IMG/VR virus record: IMGVR_UViG_3300026521_000011
Location: 1-42,337 of that record
From: a virus
Direction: 5' to 3' (one strand)
DNA length: 42,337 nt
Both the position numbers and the translations under genes were made by a program. Shown piece by piece: positions 22,443 through 42,138 of the stretch. Numbering within the stretch: position 1 is the stretch's first letter; each line of letters begins with the position of its first letter. Below the pieces are notes generated by a model. The model was not told the origin of the DNA. It was given only the letters and a program-made list of their open reading frames with translations, and made no database searches.

Positions 22443-24614
22443 CTAGTTAGCACAACTAACACAAGTAGTTTCACTCATATAATATATAGCTTTTACTTCG
22501 TGCTTTAGCATTAACTTTATAGCTTTATCACTAAACTCTTTCATACTAAATAAGTCTGGATTAACTCCAATCTCATTACTTACACCAGTATCAACCCATC
22601 TTTGAATAGCTGCTGCCACTTCTAAGAAGAATACACCATCAAAACTACCTCTAGTTCTATAGTATGGAAACTTAGTATCTGCATAAGCTGGAACTATAAC
22701 TGGTGTCATAGATTGCATATCTTTAAAATGACATAAACTAGTTACTGGTAAGAAGTTTGGTGAAGCTCCTAGAACAACTCCAGTTCCTGCATTCGGTGCT
22801 GGTGATATTAACAAGAAGTTATAAATACCTTTTGTTTTAATATCATTGTTAAGTTTTACCCAGTCTAATCCATTTAAACTAAGTTTATTTAGCTCTTCAG
22901 GTGTATGATTAAACATAGTATCATAGTTAGCTTTATGATATAAAGGATATGAGCCATGCTTTTGAGCTAACTCTATACTTCTCTCATAGGCATAATATGT
23001 GATTAACTCTTGAACTCTTTCAAGTTCTATGATACCATCTTGATTATAAGTCATAGATTTATAAGCTAGATAATCTGCACCACCAACTAAACCTATACCA
23101 GTATTACGTAAATCTCTAGCAGAGTTTTTAGTTTTCTCTGTAGGGAATGTTGAAATATCTATAATAGTATTTAGCATATCTACAGTTTCTCTAACTACAT
23201 AGCGTAATCTTTTATCTGGATTTTTATGCTTAACTATTTCAGTCAAGTTAATGCTCATTAGATTACAAGTATGGTCATACTCTTTAGTATTAATACTAAA
23301 TGACTCTAAACATAGATTACCTGTTTGTGCTTTATAATAAGCTTTAAGGTAGTTGTTAGAGTTTATACCATCTTTGTTTGTTATATTCACTTTACCTATT
23401 TTAAAGTAAACATCCCACATCTGAACCCATAGCTTATGTGCATTAACCTCTTTATGTGCTACTTTATCTAAGTTATCTAAAACTATATTATAAGCATCTT
23501 CCCAATCTTTACCAACTAACTCTGTTAAGTCAATATCTAGGTGTTTGATACAATCATAGTTATTTACTAGGTACACATTCTCCTTAGTTTTAATCTTTTT
23601 AAGAAGATAGTCATTTAGTAAGAACTGTGGTAAAATATCAAAAGATTTCTTTCTTATATCTCCACCATCTTCTGTAGATACCTCTAAGAATTCTAAGAAG
23701 TCTAAGTGGAACCAGTCATTTGCAACAGTAATTGCACCCTTACGGCTACCTAGTTGGTCTACTGTATAAGCAACCAAATCAAAGAACTTAACCCATTTAT
23801 TAATATGAGTTGCTGCACCTGGAACGTGTTGAATATCAGAACCTTCTGGTCTAATCTTACCTACATAGACTGCTAAACCACCGCCAGATTTACTGATTAA
23901 AGAAGCATCACTAACAGCTCCCATAATATCTTCAATGTTGTCTTGAGCCATAATACTAAAACAACTTGCAGTATTTCCACCAAGTCTAAGGTTTTTCTTT
24001 ACTGGTGTAGACTCAGAAGACTCTTTAGAAGCAAATAGCTCATAATACTTTTTAAGTTTCTTCTTAGAACCTCTAGATAGTATTAAAGCATCCATCATAT
24101 TAGCCCATTGAGGATATTCAATATATCCATCTGTATCGTGAACTAAATAACTACTCTTTAAAGATACCACAGACTGAGTTGTTTGCTCAAAATCTACTTT
24201 ACTATTAATAAGTTTCTCTGCAACTCTTAATAGTTTATTTTTAATTTTAAACTTATAGATACCTTTGCCTCTAAGAAGTTTATAACCTTTAATAAACTCT
24301 TCCTGTTTAAGACTAGTATTTTTATGTATCTCTCCGTGAAGTGCAGCCATTTCTAATCTACCAACAGCTAATGCCCATTGGTTATTAGTTGGATTATCTG
24401 GAGTTATAAATAGTTTAGCCTCATAAATAATAACTTTTTGTATTTCAATAGTTGTAATACCATCATAAAAAGCTATAGATAACTTTTGAAGCAACTCTAC
24501 AGGGTTAATATCTAACCCTTTAAAAGCGAAATGAACCATATTAACTAGTTTGTCAGTATTTAATGGTTCTCTTCTACCATCTCTTTTAGTTACTGTTAAA
24601 ACTTTATTTGCCAT
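22443..24614 (-). CDS. nrdA: Ribonucleotide reductase class I, large (alpha) subunit
   Basis: A 723-residue class I RNR alpha subunit reducing ribonucleotides to deoxyribonucleotides. Motifs: an N-terminal ATP-cone-like region, the first active-site cysteine in NTASCFSIM, the NLCLES loop (Asn, thiyl Cys, Glu), the second redox cysteine in HTCNLMSINL, paired tyrosines KAIYYMSE for radical transfer, and a C-terminal CVSC pair that accepts electrons. I chose the ATG at 24614 (MANKVLTV) because AAGGAGTTTGCTA precedes it; two more codons exist upstream. It overlaps nrdB by 11 bases. Confidence 0.95.
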   Translation of the reverse strand: MANKVLTVTKRDGRREPLNTDKLVNMVHFAFKGLDINPVELLQKLSIAFYDGITTIEIQKVIIYEAKLFITPDNPTNNQWALAVGRLEMAALHGEIHKNTSLKQEEFIKGYKLLRGKGIYKFKIKNKLLRVAEKLINSKVDFEQTTQSVVSLKSSYLVHDTDGYIEYPQWANMMDALILSRGSKKKLKKYYELFASKESSESTPVKKNLRLGGNTASCFSIMAQDNIEDIMGAVSDASLISKSGGGLAVYVGKIRPEGSDIQHVPGAATHINKWVKFFDLVAYTVDQLGSRKGAITVANDWFHLDFLEFLEVSTEDGGDIRKKSFDILPQFLLNDYLLKKIKTKENVYLVNNYDCIKHLDIDLTELVGKDWEDAYNIVLDNLDKVAHKEVNAHKLWVQMWDVYFKIGKVNITNKDGINSNNYLKAYYKAQTGNLCLESFSINTKEYDHTCNLMSINLTEIVKHKNPDKRLRYVVRETVDMLNTIIDISTFPTEKTKNSARDLRNTGIGLVGGADYLAYKSMTYNQDGIIELERVQELITYYAYERSIELAQKHGSYPLYHKANYDTMFNHTPEELNKLSLNGLDWVKLNNDIKTKGIYNFLLISPAPNAGTGVVLGASPNFLPVTSLCHFKDMQSMTPVIVPAYADTKFPYYRTRGSFDGVFFLEVAAAIQRWVDTGVSNEIGVNPDLFSMKEFSDKAIKLMLKHEVKAIYYMSETTCVSCAN

Positions 24615-25650
24615 TAGCAAACTCCTTATAATCTTTAATTTTTACACTTGGGTCAAAGTAATTAGCCGAATGAGCCTCAAATATACCAGTCTCTGAAGAG
24701 TCTACATTTTCAACATTAGAAACTCTCTCTAAGTGCAAGTAAGCATTTTCTGCTTCTGTGTATTTAAAAGGTAATTTGAGTAATCTAAATATTTTATTAG
24801 CTCTATGCTTAGTATATTTAGTTATACTATCTTCATTAAATCCTAAGATACCTTGACCTATAATATATGAACTATATTTAGATTCATCTTCAGTAGCTTG
24901 CTTAAGAAAATCTATGATAAACTCTTCATCCCAGTACTCTGGATAATCTTCTTTGTACTTTAATAGAAGCTCTGCAAAAATATCAATATGAGTAACCTCA
25001 TTCTTTTTAATCCAAGAAATGATTATAGAAGTGTTAATCATAGTGCCTTTATACTTTAATGAGAAGAAAAAGTTAAAAATACTATAGAACATAATAGCTT
25101 CTAAAACTAGGTTAGTTAATAAAACTTTTAGTTGTCCTCTTACTGTTTTATCATCTAATGATTTATAAGCTTTAGTTATCTGTAAAGCTCTTGCTCTCAT
25201 AACAGGGTCAGTCTTTATAAGGTCACGAACTCTTCTAGCTTCTTCTTTACTGTATAAAGAATTATAAATATAAGAATAAGAGAAACTATGTAAAGACTCT
25301 TCCATTTCGTGATATGCTAATACGCCCTTAACCTCAGGATATCTAATCTTACTAGATATTTCAGGTAAGTTATTTACCTGCAAGCTATCTAAATTAGTTA
25401 AGTGAGATAAACATCTATCAAAGGCCTCGCTTTCAGCTTGAGACATATTTTTAAAATCTTTAGAGTCATCAGTCACTGGATACTTTAAAGGATGCCAAGC
25501 ATTTGCAAACATTTTCTCTGTATGCCTCTGATAAAATTCTGGTAAAGTTTGGTCTATCATATCAACTAGGCCAGTAGTATTACCACTAAACATTTTAATA
25601 TCTTTTGTATCTGCTAAAGGGTCAAATAGCTCAGTTTTAGTTACTTCCAT
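24604..25650 (-). CDS. nrdB: Ribonucleotide reductase class I, small (beta) subunit
   Basis: A 348-residue beta subunit that holds the diiron centre and tyrosyl radical. Ligand motifs present: LTNLDSLQ (first Asp), MEESLHSFSY (Glu, His and the radical Tyr), NLVLEAIMFY (Glu) and KKNEVTHID (Glu, His). So this looks like an intact Tyr-radical enzyme, not the radical-less variants. The C-terminus (KIKDYKEFANGK) should dock into the large subunit. Preceded by AAGGAAAGTAA and followed immediately by nrdA. Confidence 0.95.
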   Translation of the reverse strand: MEVTKTELFDPLADTKDIKMFSGNTTGLVDMIDQTLPEFYQRHTEKMFANAWHPLKYPVTDDSKDFKNMSQAESEAFDRCLSHLTNLDSLQVNNLPEISSKIRYPEVKGVLAYHEMEESLHSFSYSYIYNSLYSKEEARRVRDLIKTDPVMRARALQITKAYKSLDDKTVRGQLKVLLTNLVLEAIMFYSIFNFFFSLKYKGTMINTSIIISWIKKNEVTHIDIFAELLLKYKEDYPEYWDEEFIIDFLKQATEDESKYSSYIIGQGILGFNEDSITKYTKHRANKIFRLLKLPFKYTEAENAYLHLERVSNVENVDSSETGIFEAHSANYFDPSVKIKDYKEFANGK

Positions 25651-25663
25651 TTACTTTCCTTTC

Positions 25664-26275
25664 TTAATCTTTATTTACAAACTCTTCCATAATGCGTGGA
25701 AACTTCTCAGATAAAACTAAAGCTATCTCATTTGCTATTGCTCTAATTTCCCATTGTGCGTGTGGATCTGTTCTAAGTTTTAAGAATTGACTCCACATCT
25801 GCATATTTCCAGCAATATATAAATCAGTTGTTACCGCTCTTGTTAAAGCAAATCTTGCATCTTCTTTTTTAACACCTTTTTTAATTAATCGATTGTAAGC
25901 TTCTTTAGATTGTTTATTTACCTCTTCAAAAGTAGCTCTCACTACTTCTTTATCAAACTCATCTTTTAAATATTCACAAGGTGGAACAACAAACTCTCTT
26001 TCACTTTGATTAACATATCTTTGTGACTCCCATAAATGGCTATCACTATCTAATATATCAGCAAAACTTGTTCTAAGTGTTTGGACTGCACCAATAGTTG
26101 AAATATCTTCAATTTTGATAACTGCATAAGCAAATCTAAATGTAGCTAAGTGTTTATGCTCTTTCATAGTTTTAATAAGGCCTAAATTTTTTGGTTTACT
26201 GTTGTAACAAATAGCTGCACCTGTTGCTGCCATTTCCTCTGTTCTGTTGTTGTAATCTTCTAATGTTACTTTCAT
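25664..26275 (-). CDS. ThyX-like protein with altered signature motif (ThyX-1)
   Basis: A 203-residue relative of flavin-dependent thymidylate synthase, which makes dTMP from dUMP with FAD and methylenetetrahydrofolate. The C-terminal half is canonical (KKEDARFALTRAVTTDLYIA; QFLKLRTDPHAQWEIRAIA). The signature RHRxxSxNExSxRY is altered: ending at Arg86-Tyr87, the aligned residues give I-L-D for RHR and L-W for N-E, while Ser79, Ser84 and RY remain; or RHR is R-T-S (68-70) with a six-residue insert. I chose the ATG at 26275 (MKVTLEDY), which overlaps the stop before it (ATGA) and follows GGGAGATTATAAA. It may still act, or may need the paralogue at 29390-30253. Confidence 0.8.
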   Translation of the reverse strand: MKVTLEDYNNRTEEMAATGAAICYNSKPKNLGLIKTMKEHKHLATFRFAYAVIKIEDISTIGAVQTLRTSFADILDSDSHLWESQRYVNQSEREFVVPPCEYLKDEFDKEVVRATFEEVNKQSKEAYNRLIKKGVKKEDARFALTRAVTTDLYIAGNMQMWSQFLKLRTDPHAQWEIRAIANEIALVLSEKFPRIMEEFVNKD

Positions 26276-26655
26276 TTTATAATCTCCCAATCTGTATCTA
26301 ATATATCGCTTTGACTTGCTAGCCAAGGTACTACAGTATTATCAGATGTTTTCATAGCAATATATGCTTGATATGGTACCATATCATCTTCAAATACTCC
26401 AACCATTGTTCCTTTCTTATTCCCACTAGCTGGATACTTATTAGCTTCAACATAGTAAATAAACATACCTTTACCGTTCCAACCAGCTCTGCAAACCTTT
26501 TGACCATCTTTCATTGCTTGAATAGCTTCTCCAAAAGTCATACCTTTAAGTTTACCTGAGCCTTTGCACATATTACATTCTATAATATCATCCCAACCAC
26601 ACTCTATGGATACTCTTAATTTTCCAGAGCCTTTACATTTCTTGCATTTACTCAT
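26272..26655 (-). CDS. Zinc-ribbon fused to Tad2 (DUF2829) domain, putative anti-Thoeris protein
   Basis: A 127-residue two-part protein. Residues 4-34 carry two DnaJ-type CxxCxGxG knuckles (CKKCKGSG, CNMCKGSG) that should bind one zinc. From residue 39 it follows the DUF2829/Tad2 pattern closely: MTFGEAIQAMKDGQKVCRAG, then WNGKGMFIYYVE, MKTSDNTVVPWLASQSD and DWEII. Tad2 proteins sequester the cyclic ADP-ribose-type signal of Thoeris defence and so block it. Family membership is clear; the inhibitory role here is inferred. The zinc ribbon is an uncommon addition to the ~80-residue core. It overlaps the ThyX-1 start by four bases. Confidence 0.85.
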   Translation of the reverse strand: MSKCKKCKGSGKLRVSIECGWDDIIECNMCKGSGKLKGMTFGEAIQAMKDGQKVCRAGWNGKGMFIYYVEANKYPASGNKKGTMVGVFEDDMVPYQAYIAMKTSDNTVVPWLASQSDILDTDWEIIK

Positions 26656-27510
26656 TTAATCTATCTCCTCTTTTGTTTTATCGTCTCTAACCCTAATAAA
26701 TGTGGGTTGAATATAAGTCGCTAAGATTTGCTCATACTCAATCTCTATGACTTTACCTATAAAGTATTCATTAGGTAACCCTCTCTGTTCATCACTTAGG
26801 CCACTACCAACTTGTACGCTTCTCCCGGCCTTATCTTGTAATACTAAGCTACCTACCATGCCCATATATTTACCATCACCGCTTAGTACACTTCTACATA
26901 GTAAATCAGCTGTTGGTCTAAGTTTTAGCTTAATAGCGTCATTAACTCTTTTACCTTCTCTATACATATGATTCGGTGACTTAAGATACAAGCCTTCATA
27001 GTCATCTTTAACAACTAATTTAGCTTCATTCTTACACTCTTCTAAAGTATCAATACCGGAAAAATCCACTAGCTCACAGTGTTTACCGTAGTCTAGTTCT
27101 TCTAATATCCAGCATAGTCTGTCTTCAAAAGATAACATAGTATCTATACAGTCAAATACCATAAATCTTTCATTATCTATAGCATTAGTTTCTATGCCTT
27201 TTTCAAAGTTGGTTCTGTAAGTAGTAAGTTTAGCTGAATATCCTCTACTACCTAACTTACCAGATGAGGTATTAATATACTCAGCTTCTAGTATAAAATC
27301 TCTGCCTGGATTATTCTCAATAAGTTCTTCTGCTACGTTTTTAACATAGAACTCTTTTCCACTACTTGTGAAAAATCTAACATTATCACCAGCTTTATGT
27401 ATCTGAACGTAATGACCATCATACTTAATAGAGTGATAAAATCTATCCTCTAGCTTAGACTTAGGAACTTTAACTAAGTCTTTACCTTTACATTGTTTAA
27501 TGAAACTCAT
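26656..27510 (-). CDS. ATP-dependent DNA ligase
   Basis: A 284-residue ligase sealing nicks in DNA. Motif I is KYDGHYVQ (catalytic Lys29), followed by the adenylation-site FILEAEY (motif III-region Glu), DYEGLYLKSP (motif IV) and AIKLKLR (motif V). A short C-terminal OB-fold (from about residue 205, LLCRSVLSGDGKYMGMVGSL) ends in FIRVRDDKT. It is a minimal ligase without an N-terminal DNA-binding domain, similar in size to T7-group enzymes. The start overlaps the upstream gene's stop by one base. Confidence 0.9.
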   Translation of the reverse strand: MSFIKQCKGKDLVKVPKSKLEDRFYHSIKYDGHYVQIHKAGDNVRFFTSSGKEFYVKNVAEELIENNPGRDFILEAEYINTSSGKLGSRGYSAKLTTYRTNFEKGIETNAIDNERFMVFDCIDTMLSFEDRLCWILEELDYGKHCELVDFSGIDTLEECKNEAKLVVKDDYEGLYLKSPNHMYREGKRVNDAIKLKLRPTADLLCRSVLSGDGKYMGMVGSLVLQDKAGRSVQVGSGLSDEQRGLPNEYFIGKVIEIEYEQILATYIQPTFIRVRDDKTKEEID

Positions 27511-28043
27511 TAGTTCTCACTTAAAACTTCATTGTTCTCTATCATAAAAGACTTAGTTAACACGAAAGGGTCTGGGTATTCTAGTATAAATCTACCAGAA
27601 AACCTAATTTTTTCTTTTGTACCATCAGAGAATTTAACTTCTGCAAACTCACCATCTAGGTGACCCTCTATGTCCACACATTTTGGGTCTTCTACTTTAG
27701 TACCTTCAAACTCAGCTAATAGTTCTTCATAGTTGTCATCAGTAGACTTAATGAAAGTGCCATTAGCATTTAAGAACCCTTTACGGTCTTTAATGTCATT
27801 ATATGCAACTTCCCAACACTCAGCTAATGTAGTTCCTTTAAGTTTTGCTATGTTAGTTAATACAACTAACATATCACCGATATCATCCTTAATGTCTTTA
27901 CCTTTAGCTATATTATCGCATAGCTCTCCAGCTTCACTAATCAACTTTAAAGTTTGCGTTTCAGCTTTACCGTTAATAGTGATACCTCTATCAGCACTCC
28001 ATTTAAGTGTAAGTTCTTCATACTCATTTAACGTTTTTAACAT
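27510..28043 (-). CDS. MazG-like nucleotide pyrophosphohydrolase with C-terminal extension
   Basis: A 177-residue protein. Residues 1-105 are a MazG-like all-alpha NTP pyrophosphohydrolase with the metal motif ISEAGEL (Glu37, Glu40) and KDDIGDML (Asp54, Asp57), then the characteristic NDIKDRKGFLNANGTFIK ending. It should convert a (d)NTP to the monophosphate plus pyrophosphate. Residues ~115-177 form an extra beta-rich domain (EVKFSDGTKEKIRFSGRFIL) not part of the usual fold. Sits within the nucleotide cluster. Confidence 0.82.
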   Translation of the reverse strand: MLKTLNEYEELTLKWSADRGITINGKAETQTLKLISEAGELCDNIAKGKDIKDDIGDMLVVLTNIAKLKGTTLAECWEVAYNDIKDRKGFLNANGTFIKSTDDNYEELLAEFEGTKVEDPKCVDIEGHLDGEFAEVKFSDGTKEKIRFSGRFILEYPDPFVLTKSFMIENNEVLSEN

Positions 28044-28052
28044 AAGTTTCCT

Positions 28053-28274
28053 TTAATCTTTATTTAATTCTAACTCTAAGCTTTCAGTTGCAAAAGGGTG
28101 TAATGTGATGTTTTCATCTTTAAACACTTTCTTAGCTACTGAAATACTTGGGTTATAGTCATTGTGTTTGTATGTACTAATCATACTTGTTGACACACCT
28201 AGTTTTTCTGCTATTTCTCTACCATTCAATCCTTCATCTTCTAAGGACTGAATATAAGCCTGAACTAATACCAT
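28053..28274 (-). CDS. Small helix-turn-helix regulator
   Basis: A 73-residue protein. Residues 14-40 (LNGREIAEKLGVSTSMISTY) form a Cro/C1-like helix-turn-helix with a recognition helix starting at Ser28. The C-terminal tail is acidic and flexible. It is the first gene after a promoter (28305-28327) and a terminator (28361-28393), so it likely controls the downstream nucleotide genes or the phage promoters. Ribosome site AAAGGAGGAAACTAA. Confidence 0.78.
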   Translation of the reverse strand: MVLVQAYIQSLEDEGLNGREIAEKLGVSTSMISTYKHNDYNPSISVAKKVFKDENITLHPFATESLELELNKD

Positions 28275-28304
28275 TTAGTTTCCTCCTTTAATTTAATTTA
28301 TATA

Positions 28305-28327
28305 ATTATATCAAAATATATCTTAAA
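28305..28327 (-). promoter_or_regulatory. Leftward promoter before the HTH regulator
   Basis: Minus-strand TTTAAGA (28327-28321), ten bases, TATAAT (28310-28305) with extended TGA in front: the family's 17-base spacing. It drives the segment from the HTH gene toward MazG, ligase and RNR. Confidence 0.7.
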
Positions 28328-28360
28328 TTTATATAAATTGAATATATTTAATAAATTAAA

Positions 28361-28393
28361 TCTTCTCATATATATATTCGATATATGAGAAGA
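28361..28393 (-). terminator. Intrinsic terminator after the HD nucleotidase gene
   Basis: TCTTCTCATATAT (28361-28373), seven-base loop, ATATATGAGAAGA (28381-28393): a perfect 13-pair stem. On the minus strand it is followed by TTTAATTTATT. It separates the upstream replication genes from the HTH-led unit. Confidence 0.7.
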
Positions 28394-28460
28394 TAATCTT
28401 TAGATGATAGATTATATCTATTTATAAATATAATCAAACCTCATTAAAATATGAAGATAT

Positions 28461-28985
28461 TTATCTTATATATTTTGATAGATAATTTTGATATTTTAAA
28501 ATCAAATCTTCAGTGCTATAAGCCATACTATCAACTGTAGCACCTTGACCAATCTTGGCTTCATTTCTAAGATATTGTCTAACTTGAAGTATATCAGCAT
28601 ATTTAACAACTAAACTTTCAACACTTTCACGAGCTATATACTCTTCATATAACTCGTGAATAGGCTCTCCAAAAGACTTCATTACTTTTCGTTCAGCTTT
28701 CTCAACCTCTTTAACTAAAGATGGATGGTTAAGTTTAGCAGTTAATGTTATATCCCCAATCTCACACTCTGCAAAATCGTGGATGATAGCCATTGTCATA
28801 GCTTTACCTAAATCAAATTCATAAGTTTTATGTAACTCTAAAACAAATGCAGCTACAAAGAAACTATGTTCAGCTACCGTTTCTGAAGTAATTCTAGGAG
28901 TTAAACTATATCTCTGTACAAACCTAAGGTTGTAAATTCTATCAGTCATATTCCCTTTAGTATGTTGGTTTTTATTCAATGCCAT
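28461..28985 (-). CDS. HD-domain 5'-deoxynucleotidase (YfbR-like)
   Basis: A 174-residue HD-domain phosphohydrolase. Conserved points are FVQRYSLTP (22-30), SETVAEHS (34-41, His40), IIHDFAE (68-73, His69-Asp70) and KYADIL (Asp131), together the H...HD...D metal set. The 'RYSL.....ET.aEHS' opening is that of YfbR-type deoxynucleoside 5'-monophosphatases. Phage relatives such as DatZ instead hydrolyse dATP, and specificity cannot be told from motifs alone. The start (MALNKNQ) follows GTAGGAGAAGATT and overlaps the preceding gene by 14 bases. Confidence 0.86.
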   Translation of the reverse strand: MALNKNQHTKGNMTDRIYNLRFVQRYSLTPRITSETVAEHSFFVAAFVLELHKTYEFDLGKAMTMAIIHDFAECEIGDITLTAKLNHPSLVKEVEKAERKVMKSFGEPIHELYEEYIARESVESLVVKYADILQVRQYLRNEAKIGQGATVDSMAYSTEDLILKYQNYLSKYIR

Positions 28986-29397
28986 AATCTTCTCCTACTT
29001 CTTTACCTTCAATAATTATTGTAAATAGCTCTTCAACTGTTTTAGCTACTTTACCGCTCTTAGCTAACATTAAGTTAACTTTATCAATACCTGGAGTGTA
29101 ATAAACTATAGGTATTCCTTTAGAAAAAGCATATCCACACTCCCAGATAGTTCCCATATCTTTATCTACAGTAGAAGCTATGATTAATTCTGCAGAGTCT
29201 ATATGCTCTAGGTTGCCTTGAAATATATCATCCCATTGTTTTGAGCTCATTTCAGAAGACCCTAAGTTAGAAACTCTAGGTTTAAATACATTTTCAAACC
29301 ATTTATCTGCAAAATCTTCTAACTCTCTACAAGCTCTCATTTGACCATCATTAAACCATCCGCCAGCTACATAAACTTTAGTTTCTTTGTTAAACAT
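28972..29397 (-). CDS. Nucleoside 2-deoxyribosyltransferase-like protein
   Basis: A 141-residue protein of the nucleoside 2-deoxyribosyltransferase-like fold: KVYVAGGWF (7-15) at the N-terminal strand, NLEHIDSAELIIAST and VDKDMGTIWECGYAFSKG, where the Asp and Glu (TIWEcGyA) mark the active-site region of this family. It could transfer deoxyribose between bases or remove a base from a deoxynucleotide (as in DNPH1-like members). Lies between HD nucleotidase and a ThyX-like gene, consistent with base salvage or pool filtering. Confidence 0.82.
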   Translation of the reverse strand: MFNKETKVYVAGGWFNDGQMRACRELEDFADKWFENVFKPRVSNLGSSEMSSKQWDDIFQGNLEHIDSAELIIASTVDKDMGTIWECGYAFSKGIPIVYYTPGIDKVNLMLAKSGKVAKTVEELFTIIIEGKEVGEDYGIE

Positions 29398-30253
29398 CTT
29401 GAACCTCCTTTAATATGTTTAAATATGTTTCACTTCCTGGGAAGTCTTGACGACGTTTATCATAGATATACTCTTCAGAATTGTAGTCATAAACATCATT
29501 GTTTGGTTTAGGTAAATAACATTTAGAGTTATGTCCCTCTTTAGCTGTTTTAATGAACCAATGGTCTGGACCACCAAAATCCATATTTAGAATATCTTTC
29601 AACTCTGGTAGATGTTTTATGAGTTGTTGGTATAATCTAATAGCTACAACATTATCAGACTCTGGCTGAATTGCTTCATCTTTACGAGTTCTAATAAACT
29701 GAATAATATCTTTAATGTTACCTTTAACATAGTAAAAATTACTTAAACTTCTAGGTAATACTGTACGAGCATCAAAAATACTAACTTCTTTAGAGTCTAC
29801 CATATCTGCATAAAGCTCTTTAGCTAACTTATGTAACTCTTTGTATCTCTCCAAGAATGTATCATTATCTAATATAGAGGGCTTAACTAAAACATCATCC
29901 AATCTCATATCCCTATCAGCTGTACATTGAGCACTAAAACTAAGAGTTCTGTGTCTGATTAAATGTGTTACATCAATCAAATCTAATCCCTCAACTCTGA
30001 AAGTTAAGTTTATAGTTTCTAGTGCAGTAGGGAGAAGTTTACCTTCAAATGTTTGTCTAACAGCTTCTTCTCGTTCCTCATCTGTAAATACTCTATTTGG
30101 AGTATCTTCCCAAGTAGCCAATGTAAACTCTGGTATGTATTGTTTCAATTGGCTCCAAGTAGGGCAGTCCATCATAACCACTTTGATATTATCTAAGTGG
30201 TTTAAGAATTTAGTCTCTGGCTGTTGGTTCCATTTAAGTTTAACATTACTCAT
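29390..30253 (-). CDS. Divergent ThyX-like protein (ThyX-2)
   Basis: A 287-residue second ThyX relative, longer than usual because of N- and C-terminal extensions. Residues 95-117 hold VTHLIRHRTLSFSA, keeping RHR (100-102) and Ser105, but the following N-E is S-A, the second Ser is Cys110 and the final R-Y is A-D. The downstream helix keeps NIKDIIQFIRTRKDE and QPES. It thus preserves exactly the half of the signature lost in ThyX-1. It may methylate or otherwise modify a pyrimidine nucleotide, alone or as a mixed tetramer. The C-terminal ~60 residues (GGPDHWFIKTAKEGHNSKC) are of unknown role. Confidence 0.72.
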   Translation of the reverse strand: MSNVKLKWNQQPETKFLNHLDNIKVVMMDCPTWSQLKQYIPEFTLATWEDTPNRVFTDEEREEAVRQTFEGKLLPTALETINLTFRVEGLDLIDVTHLIRHRTLSFSAQCTADRDMRLDDVLVKPSILDNDTFLERYKELHKLAKELYADMVDSKEVSIFDARTVLPRSLSNFYYVKGNIKDIIQFIRTRKDEAIQPESDNVVAIRLYQQLIKHLPELKDILNMDFGGPDHWFIKTAKEGHNSKCYLPKPNNDVYDYNSEEYIYDKRRQDFPGSETYLNILKEVQDV

Positions 30254-30533
30254 TAGTTTTCCCTTTTAATGTATCTTCAGCAAGTTTAGCATATCCGGCA
30301 ATATCGTGCCAAGTATCTAAATGGTCTGGTGTTGTAGATAATCTACTTAGCTTGTTAACTATGTCAAAAATGTAAACTTGGTGGACTTTATCCATAGGTT
30401 TACCATTGACTTTTTGATGCCTATCAGTAATAATCCCCATTATAGAAGCTCTTAACTCTGAGCCTCCTTCATAATCTCCATATACTGCACCTCGTTCTTG
30501 TAATGTTTCTTCTATTGTTTTATTCTGTTCCAT
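30246..30533 (-). CDS. DUF6378-family phage protein
   Basis: A 95-residue protein matching a widespread phage family: ETLQERGAVYGDYEG near the start, then FDIVNKLSRLSTTPDH and DTWHDIAGYAKLAEDTLKG. The 'ER...YGd...K.sR......D...DiaGYa.La' pattern resembles MazG-like all-alpha folds, but activity is not established. The ATG at 30533 has AAGGA seven bases before it; a TTG two codons upstream is a less likely start. It overlaps the exonuclease gene by 14 bases. Confidence 0.75.
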   Translation of the reverse strand: MEQNKTIEETLQERGAVYGDYEGGSELRASIMGIITDRHQKVNGKPMDKVHQVYIFDIVNKLSRLSTTPDHLDTWHDIAGYAKLAEDTLKGKTNE

Positions 30534-31515
30534 CTTCAAATCCTTCTGGTTTCCATAAATTTAGTTCATAACTATCAGTTTCAGGTAAGTATGTAACTTG
30601 GTGCATATTTACCAGCCTCATATTTTTAATAGCATCGAAAACACTTCTGCCTTTACTGTCATACATTCTAAGTACCTCGTTCCAACACTCTTTAGGAGTC
30701 GAACAACAGCTCAGAGCTTTATCTGCACTCTTAGGTCCTACTCTAAACAAACCTATTACATTATCTCCAGGGTCTCCTGTAAGTACCTGTAAGTAATGAT
30801 GCTTCATAGCTTGCTCTTCCGAAACTTCTATGTAATGCATCTTAATCTCTTCCATAATATTACCCCATCTATTAGTTCCACCAGGCCTAGAGTAATAATT
30901 AAAGTGCTTGTTATCTGGTGTTGTAGGTAATGTATATAATACATCCTTATCTACAGCACAAAGAACATATTTTTCAGGTAATGCTCTTTTTCTAGCAACT
31001 ACAACGTCATCAGCTTCATATAATAAGTTCATAAAAGCTTTACCTGGAAACTCTTCAACAAACTTATCTTTTAAAGCTCTTAAACCTACAGGAGGCTTTT
31101 TAGTTTTATCTTTCATCCTGTTAGCTTTATACTCATCATCAACCTGAGTATATCTAAAGGATTCTCTCCCTCCAGTAAAGTGTAACTCCCAAGACAAACA
31201 ACCTGTTCTGTTTAGAATGTTCTCTAACTTATCAAGAGCATGCTGGAAAGCTATATCTATGTTAAGAGTTCTTAGTATATGTTCCTCTTCATCATATCCA
31301 GGGTCATTTATAATAGATTCCCATTCCTCTTCAGTATAAAGTTCTCTACTTAATAACTCTCCCTCTTCTTGACAAGTTAATGCACTACCGAAAATAACAG
31401 TGTCAGCATCTATCAATGCTATCTTATCATTCTTAGGAGGTAAAACCTCTCCAGTGTTACCTAGTTCGACCTCTACAATTTCTCCCTCAAAATTTCCATC
31501 TATCCCATCAATCAT
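30520..31515 (-). CDS. 5'-3' exonuclease (flap/FEN-type)
   Basis: A 331-residue PIN/FEN-type nuclease that should remove RNA primers or flaps next to the PolA polymerase. Acidic active-site residues are visible in KIALIDADTVIF, LLYEADDVV and AVDKDVLYTLP. A helix-hairpin-helix region follows in VLTGDPGDNVIGLFRVGPKS. The start at 31515 (MIDGIDG) is chosen because GGAGG lies in the end of the polymerase gene and the ATG comes one base after its TAG. A longer frame upstream would overlap polA by ~80 bases and has no conserved residues. Confidence 0.88.
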   Translation of the reverse strand: MIDGIDGNFEGEIVEVELGNTGEVLPPKNDKIALIDADTVIFGSALTCQEEGELLSRELYTEEEWESIINDPGYDEEEHILRTLNIDIAFQHALDKLENILNRTGCLSWELHFTGGRESFRYTQVDDEYKANRMKDKTKKPPVGLRALKDKFVEEFPGKAFMNLLYEADDVVVARKRALPEKYVLCAVDKDVLYTLPTTPDNKHFNYYSRPGGTNRWGNIMEEIKMHYIEVSEEQAMKHHYLQVLTGDPGDNVIGLFRVGPKSADKALSCCSTPKECWNEVLRMYDSKGRSVFDAIKNMRLVNMHQVTYLPETDSYELNLWKPEGFEDGTE

Positions 31516-41897: not shown

Positions 41898-42138
41898 AAG
41901 AATTAATTAAATTATAAATCTCTTCATAATGATTATTCATATCATCAGTTAATATATTTTCAATTAGTTCCACTTTATCATAAAGATAAATATTATATTT
42001 AATCTCTAAATGAATTATTAATCTGTCTATCAATCTCTTATATCTGGATTGTAATTCATCTAAAGATATTTTATTATCTTCATATAATTTAAAATTTTTA
42101 TCTCTTATTTTAAGAGATTCATTAATTAGATTTTTCAT
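41896..42138 (-). CDS. First leftward early protein (80 aa)
   Basis: An 80-residue charged, helical protein (IRDKNFKLYEDNKISLDELQ, YKRLIDRLIIHLEI) with no membrane segment. It is the first gene after the tandem leftward promoters at 42165-42187 and 35-57, with AAAAGGATATAAG before the ATG. Such first early genes often inhibit host functions; nothing in the sequence shows which. Confidence 0.6.
   Translation of the reverse strand: MKNLINESLKIRDKNFKLYEDNKISLDELQSRYKRLIDRLIIHLEIKYNIYLYDKVELIENILTDDMNNHYEEIYNLINS

Follow-up and report, generated by a model that had tools for sequence, protein, structure and literature searches.

Two ThyX relatives in one phage: a probable thymidylate synthase and a divergent candidate deoxypyrimidine C5-(hydroxy)methylase

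Why a phage should carry two relatives of the flavin-dependent thymidylate synthase ThyX is the question raised by the IMG/VR virus record IMGVR_UViG_3300026521_000011, a viral contig of 42,337 nucleotides that was analysed over its whole length (hereafter, the window). Both genes, ThyX-1 and ThyX-2, lie on the minus strand with 3.1 kb between them. An earlier note on this DNA had correctly located the two genes and regarded them as paralogues that divide the ThyX signature (RHRxxSxNExSxRY) between them, and that either form one mixed enzyme or have each moved to a new pyrimidine-modifying reaction. We favour separate jobs, with a probability of roughly 0.52: ThyX-1 would make deoxythymidine monophosphate (dTMP), and ThyX-2 would be a flavin-dependent deoxypyrimidine C5-(hydroxy)methylase serving modified DNA. 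The observations that carry this reading are homology, motifs, purifying selection, gene linkage, non-co-occurrence with ThyX-1, and the exchange of a gene slot in a sister phage; from these, we infer the reaction, the substrate, the roles of the linked HD-domain and nucleoside 2-deoxyribosyltransferase-like (NDT-like) proteins, and the existence of modified DNA. The genes and motifs concerned are as follows.

29390..30253, minus strand: ThyX-2, 287 amino acids; divergent ThyX fold, candidate deoxypyrimidine C5-(hydroxy)methylase (PF02511, E = 1.5e-17)
29912..29956, minus strand: ThyX-2 motif RHRTLSFSAQCTADR, residues 100–114, with RHR, Cys110, and Asp113 (from alignments)
28972..29397, minus strand: NDT-like gene (PF05014, E = 1.7e-13; PDB 6evs, E = 1e-12)
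28461..28985, minus strand: HD-domain phosphohydrolase, YfbR-like (PF13023, E = 4e-21; PF12917, E = 3e-16; phrog_7076, dATP triphosphohydrolase, E = 4e-19)
25664..26275, minus strand: ThyX-1, 203 amino acids; probable dTMP synthase, member of a viral ThyX subfamily (PF02511, E = 3e-38)
26015..26074, minus strand: ThyX-1 motif region R68–Y87, RTSFADILDSDSHLWESQRY, with the insert (residues 77–82) at 26030–26047

ThyX-2 matched no domain other than PF02511 (64.5 bits; cut-off, 24.8) and fell short of the ThyX equivalog TIGR02170 (47.9 bits; cut-off, 87.9). Ten ThyX-2 sequences were aligned, those of the window and of nine viral contigs or phages with 36–83% identity to it, and all of them contained R[HY]R..[SA][FL]SA[QD]C[TS][AG]D[RK], in which Cys110 and Asp113 were invariant. 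In the MAFFT alignment, Cys110 corresponded to the substrate-site Ser and Asp113 to the Tyr of the lid. As the earlier note had read it, ThyX-2 retains RHR and the first Ser, and lacks N-E, the second Ser (Cys110), and R-Y (Ala/Gly112-Asp113), so that the Ser-x-Arg-Tyr of the ThyX substrate site is absent; the protein also has a C-terminal extension. The best Foldseek matches of its AlphaFold2 model (predicted local distance difference test [pLDDT] score, 79.7) were ThyX structures (E of about 1e-10), and structures of PolB, a ThyX-family methylase, were also matched. In the phylogenetic tree, ThyX-2 formed a separate clade (100/100 support) on a long branch, and the ratio of nonsynonymous to synonymous substitution rates (dN/dS) was 0.06–0.13 for close ThyX-2 pairs, indicating purifying selection. 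The most likely interpretation of these sequence features is that ThyX-2 is a neofunctionalised ThyX, in which the FAD-binding RHR was kept and the substrate loop was remodelled around an invariant Cys and Asp. A cellular origin was also considered, and a scan of genome contigs yielded no relative.

In the window, ThyX-2 belongs to a tightly packed operon, in which its end overlaps the start of the NDT-like gene, the end of which in turn overlaps the start of the HD gene. The NDT-like protein passed the PF05014 cut-off (51.2 versus 28.8 bits), and the catalytic-type Glu of its DxGTxxExGxA motif was invariant in eight aligned sequences. The HD protein shares PF12917/PF13023 and the H...HD...D motif, with catalytic-type residues invariant in the alignment, with the YfbR 5'-deoxynucleotidases and the DatZ-type HD deoxynucleoside triphosphate (dNTP) hydrolases, whereas its 45 bits fall short of the 122 needed for the YfbR equivalog, and its function is a predicted one. 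Wherever a record extends far enough around ThyX-2, both genes were present; one record that ends close to ThyX-2 (L025) was left out of this count. The three genes were contiguous in the window, L003, and L024; in L031, the NDT and HD genes adjoined ThyX-2 with one kinase gene between; and in the group of Geobacillus phage GR1, they lay within about 5 kb of it. The cassette therefore occurs in three genomic backgrounds with few other genes in common, namely the window with L003 and L024, the GR1-like phages of 79–85 kb, and L031. Among the open reading frames compared between GR1 and L031, the only common ones were NDT, HD, ThyX-2, and a TMPK-like kinase, which is carried by the GR1-like phages and L031. 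An alpha-glucosyltransferase (phrog_2888) was found in the cassette region of GR1, G009, G010, G011, and G012; it is homologous to gp313 of phage G and weakly to an alpha-glucosyltransferase of T-even phages. The T-even homology was seen in PHROG and phage-record matches, and a search of PDB sequences gave no match. Together, a thymidylate synthase (TS), a kinase, a glucosyltransferase, and the cassette make up a T4-like gene set. GR1 (L005; record OK896991, 8500–8823) and its relatives G008, G009, and G012 have an additional NDT-like gene at a distance from the cassette.

Of 50,697 phage records, 25 contained NDT relatives and 44 contained HD relatives, and the top two rows of both lists were GR1 and Streptococcus phage vB_SagM-GXN1. 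The sparsely annotated GXN1 genome has contiguous NDT, HD, and ThyX-like genes (L151:6986–9341), the NDT gene being unannotated, and a second YfbR-like gene at 42033–42428 of the record. In Bacillus phage SP-15, gp127 is an NDT, gp130 is ThyX-like, and gp90 is an HD protein, and the association of NDT with a divergent ThyX recurred in Listeria phage LIS04. The PF02511 scores of the GXN1 protein (23.6 bits) and SP-15 gp130 (26.4 bits) are marginal, and these proteins represent other branches of the fold. In phage YuA, the neighbour of an HD relative is a ThyA-type enzyme whose annotation reads putative deoxyuridylate hydroxymethyltransferase. Among the mostly unannotated genes of Xanthomonas phage phiXF1 (L153), one is an HD (YfbR-like) gene, one is NDT-like, and two match PF02511 weakly, possibly amounting to a further modification system.

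The position of the cassette is itself informative when the window is compared with its syntenic sister phage G004, in which ThyX-2 is absent and the helicase, single-stranded DNA-binding protein, ligase, and structural genes are conserved. In the window, the cassette is flanked by the following genes.

30246..30539, minus strand: DUF6378 gene (PF19905, E = 1.5e-7); upstream flank of the slot, overlapping the ThyX-2 start
27510..28043, minus strand: MazG-like gene (PF03819, E = 2.5e-5; phrog_1992, E = 3e-36); downstream flank of the slot

The DUF6378 side is conserved in G004 and G002 and the MazG side in G004. Between the same flanks (exo–DUF6378 and helix-turn-helix–MazG), ThyX-2–NDT–HD is replaced in G004 by two other genes, one for a ThyA-family protein and one (PF00145) resembling C5-methyltransferases. 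The best PDB match of the ThyA-family protein was the CMP 5-hydroxymethylase MilA (E = 5.5e-8), and its best TS match had an E-value of 1.6e-5. One of its Asp residues aligns with an Asp of MilA, at what we take, from comparison by eye, to be the position of Asn177 in Escherichia coli ThyA. An Asp at that ThyA position is the known switch to cytosine substrates. The replacement of the cassette by a hydroxymethylase-like protein is the best hint that ThyX-2 performs comparable chemistry, possibly on deoxycytidine monophosphate (dCMP). The MilA-like protein and the PF00145 gene, the latter with the motif QPSCSKFS, together occupy L033:5537–7245 in G004 and are in their own right a candidate cytosine-modification pair.

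ThyX-1 presents a different picture. It passed the cut-offs of both PF02511 (131.8 bits; cut-off, 24.8) and TIGR02170 (97.8 bits; cut-off, 87.9), and it is followed by the genes for ribonucleotide reductase (RNR).

24604..25650, minus strand: RNR small subunit (PF00268, E = 2.5e-49), directly downstream of ThyX-1
22443..24620, minus strand: RNR large subunit (phrog_84, E = 4e-126)

In the family-guided alignment, ThyX-1 retains no more of the ThyX signature RHRx7S than its initial R and its S, with a 6-residue insert between them. ThyX-1 has the fold and the substrate-loop S-R-Y in common with other ThyX proteins, as well as the R and Q positions at the C-terminal end, which ThyX-2 shares too, and differs from them in this insert and in the absence of H-R from RHR. 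The earlier note was right that the second Ser (S84), R86, and Y87 are kept and that the H and second R are lost; it overlooked the first Arg, which is present as R68, and its "first Ser" is not a homologous residue, the position R68+5 being D73, where the subfamily carries D or G. The loss of N-E, which it also counted, is uninformative because many ordinary, intact-looking ThyX proteins lack N-E (RHRxxSFTQQSQRY, RHRIASYSQQSQRY, and others), and the supposed complementary split is thus only partly real. The motif of the five-member ThyX-1 clade (73–81% identity) is LRTSFADxxDSDSHLWESQRY, with two variable positions, and includes the insert SDSHLW (residues 77–82, defined against the subfamily) immediately before S84. 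More remote relatives (L036, L045–L050, and the contigs L057, L058, and L074 from metagenome-assembled genomes) lack the insert and read R-x-x-H-[AL]-[DG]-x-L...S-[QY]-R-Y. The subfamily as a whole has thus lost the H and the final R of RHR but has its first R, together with the S, R, and Y of the substrate loop. The FAD-phosphate Arg of NxR (R190 in Mycobacterium tuberculosis) is a Gln in the subfamily (GN[MLF]QMW), and the second-subunit Arg is also kept in ThyX-1. In solved ThyX structures, the first Arg of RHR touches the isoalloxazine and deoxyuridine monophosphate (dUMP) (PMC6514825). Because the dN/dS of ThyX-1 was 0.07–0.20, indicating purifying selection, its motif changes are coordinated changes around the flavin phosphates rather than decay. 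The values for both proteins rule out the decay of one copy, in agreement with the earlier note. Its description of the pair as paralogues did not survive in the sense of sister genes, since ThyX-1 is nested in a viral ThyX subfamily (97/88 support), apart from the ThyX-2 clade, and the tree likewise rules out a recent duplication within the phage. ThyX-1 is thus predicted to be the probable dTMP synthase of the phage and, adjoining the RNR genes, would supply dTMP as a member of a subfamily with an altered flavin-phosphate-binding loop.

Among the relatives checked, ThyX-1 and ThyX-2 did not co-occur outside the window. Four further virus records (G003–G006, the sister phage among them) have ThyX-1 as their single PF02511 match, and ThyX-2 was the single match in GR1 and G007–G013. 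The exception among the other records searched was G002, in which ThyX-2 occurs with a different ThyX bearing RHRIASYTVKSTRY, which has RHR already. A canonical ThyA was found alongside ThyX-2 in G009 (E = 4.5e-64) and G012 (E = 5e-76). ThyX-2 therefore occurs in four kinds of TS setting (ThyX-1, another ThyX, canonical ThyA, and none), and is neither a subunit of ThyX-1 nor, in most cases, the sole TS. This pattern is strongly against both an obligate ThyX-1/ThyX-2 enzyme and the view that ThyX-2 is merely the TS of these phages.

Several known systems suggest what ThyX-2 may do. PolB, a ThyX-family UMP/dUMP methylase of polyoxin biosynthesis, illustrates that ThyX can change its substrate (PMC5003785). 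It ranked with the closest matches to ThyX-2 both by sequence profile and by fold (PDB 4p5a and 4p5b), and it is a ThyX relative devoted to another pyrimidine C5 reaction; however, PolB belongs to an antibiotic cluster and has a canonical-type substrate loop (RHRTWSFNEES), whereas ThyX-2 belongs to a phage NDT–HD cassette. Thymine is hypermodified in the DNA of SP-15, for which gp130, the second ThyX of this phage, has been proposed as the hydroxymethyluridylate synthase (PMC5977210). SP-15 and the window phage both have two Thy1 proteins, one of them near an NDT gene, and an HD gene in the genome, although gp130 is of a different ThyX branch without RHR, and its proposed activity is putative. 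The ThyA-family hydroxymethylases (T4 gp42, the phage dUMP hydroxymethylases, and MilA) have the same presumed job as ThyX-2 and the same gene context, in which a phosphohydrolase cleans the nucleotide pool and a kinase and a glucosyltransferase are also encoded; they are folate-dependent, flavin-free enzymes, unrelated to ThyX-2 in fold and chemistry. No PF00303 fold was found in the window, and their likeness to ThyX-2 is a functional analogy only. MilA works with an NDT-fold partner, MilB, and a phage with its own TS and a second C5 enzyme resembles T4 (td and gp42).

On these analogies, ThyX-2 would add a one-carbon unit at C5 of a deoxypyrimidine monophosphate, with dCMP favoured over dUMP, to give a (hydroxy)methylated nucleotide for modified DNA. 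FADH2 would carry the unit from methylenetetrahydrofolate, as in ThyX, and the remodelled loop would accept another pyrimidine nucleotide. Cys110 could serve as the C6 nucleophile, which ThyX does without, and water in place of hydride could end the reaction with a hydroxymethyl product. The canonical competitor nucleotide would be cleared by the HD protein and would have its base removed or swapped by the NDT-like protein. The product would then be converted to the triphosphate by phosphate transfer, through the phage kinase in the GR1-like phages and presumably a host kinase in the window phage, after which the alpha-glucosyltransferase of the GR1-like phages would decorate it in a T4-like manner. 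To our knowledge, the known phage pyrimidine-precursor hydroxymethylases are all of the ThyA type. A more specific suggestion, which we advance tentatively, is that ThyX-2 could be the first flavin-dependent deoxypyrimidine hydroxymethylase (acting on dCMP or dUMP, with Cys110 for Ser), replacing the ThyA-type enzyme in several phage lineages.

The mixed enzyme of the earlier note, a ThyX-1/ThyX-2 hetero-tetramer with complete composite active sites, is not geometrically impossible, with RHR in ThyX-2 and S-R-Y in ThyX-1, since each site in solved ThyX spans three subunits, with RHR and the substrate Ser/Arg/Tyr on different chains (PMC6514825). However, each protein occurs by itself, ThyX-1 even in the syntenic sister phage and ThyX-2 in GR1 and most other records, and the partners of ThyX-2 elsewhere are an RHR-bearing ThyX or ThyA; moreover, the H/R loss of the wider ThyX-1 subfamily is also found in single-ThyX records, and the two clades are far apart in the tree. 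We regard this enzyme as highly improbable and reject it on co-occurrence. The other proposal of the note, a move to a new reaction, suits ThyX-2 in view of its gene context and does not suit ThyX-1, apparently a functional ThyX whose motif change is common to its whole subfamily. That ThyX-1 is not a TS, its altered flavin loop reflecting another cofactor or reaction, would fit the missing H and R and the Gln in GN[MLF]QMW, yet seems unlikely for a protein above the equivalog cut-off that retains the second-subunit Arg along with the key R, S, R, and Y of the dUMP site, adjoins RNR genes, and is the sole ThyX of its phages.

ThyX-2 might instead be a TS with an unusual motif, in a cassette that salvages dTMP while HD and NDT recycle host deoxynucleotides. 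Its ThyX fold and RHR, the nearby TMPK-like kinase, and GR1 and G008, in which no other TS was recognised, accord with this; its failure at the TIGR02170 cut-off, the substitution of the substrate-site Ser, Arg, and Tyr by other conserved residues, and the redundancy of such a role beside ThyA (G009 and G012), another ThyX (G002), or ThyX-1 (the window) make it a doubtful explanation. Somewhat less probable again is that the cassette controls nucleotide pools or acts in counter-defence, with HD and NDT degrading dNTPs or signals and ThyX-2 acting as a sensor or other flavoenzyme: HD and NDT-like enzymes have folds that serve nucleotide degradation in general and a Tad2-like anti-defence gene lies nearby in the window, but modified DNA is what the glucosyltransferase and kinase genes, the contexts in SP-15 and YuA, and the hydroxymethylase-like occupant of the slot in G004 all point to.

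Several observations weigh against ThyX-2 as a C5-(hydroxy)methylase for modified DNA. In GR1 and G008, dTMP synthesis by ThyX-2 is possible. L026/G008 lacks the glucosyltransferase, and domain scans recognised no glucosyltransferase or deoxynucleoside monophosphate kinase in the window phage. The AlphaFold2 models are of moderate quality (pLDDT of about 79; template modelling scores of 0.5–0.6), and indicate the fold and not the geometry of Cys110. SP-15 gp130 was rejected as a ThyX-2 orthologue, because the ThyX-2 profile does not recognise it, and is a parallel example; the BLAST E-values of this comparison come from a four-protein database and were not used as evidence of significance. Most of the records are possible fragments, GR1 being a complete, circular genome. 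Literature searches returned nothing useful on ThyX with dCMP hydroxymethylase, on Geobacillus phage GR1, or on ThyX with dihydroxypentyluracil. If the proposed role of ThyX-2 is true, an unrelated flavoenzyme acquired the same chemistry for masking DNA, the second ThyX of SP-15 would be easier to explain, the cassette would be a genomic marker of hidden DNA modification in phages of thermophiles and Firmicutes, and the cultured phage GR1, whose host is Geobacillus stearothermophilus ATCC 10149, would offer a testable route.

Other features of the region concern ThyX-1 and its surroundings. No tRNA genes were found in the 42.3-kb contig. The Tad2-like gene at 26272–26655 (PF11195, Thoeris anti-defence 2), which has an N-terminal CxxC zinc-finger-like part, overlaps the ThyX-1 start, and a Tad2-like gene also adjoins ThyX-1 in the sister phage (L033). 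Different RNRs follow ThyX-1 in the window (22443–25650) and in the sister phage (L033:10660–13771), which also has a dCMP deaminase, so that the nucleotide genes are exchanged as modules. If the single-copy genes of the ThyX-1 subfamily are active, the textbook RHR is dispensable in viral ThyX. In the ThyX of Hydrogenothermaceae and other Aquificota (L087, L088, L090, L091, L104, L108, L112, L115, L129, L132, and L134), RHT replaces RHR, and the textbook signature is therefore not universal in cellular ThyX either. A ThyX in a Rhodoferax metagenome-assembled genome (L100) is seemingly interrupted by an intein, with ...HNFVANGFVVHN directly before SQESQRYVD in a frame of 705 amino acids.

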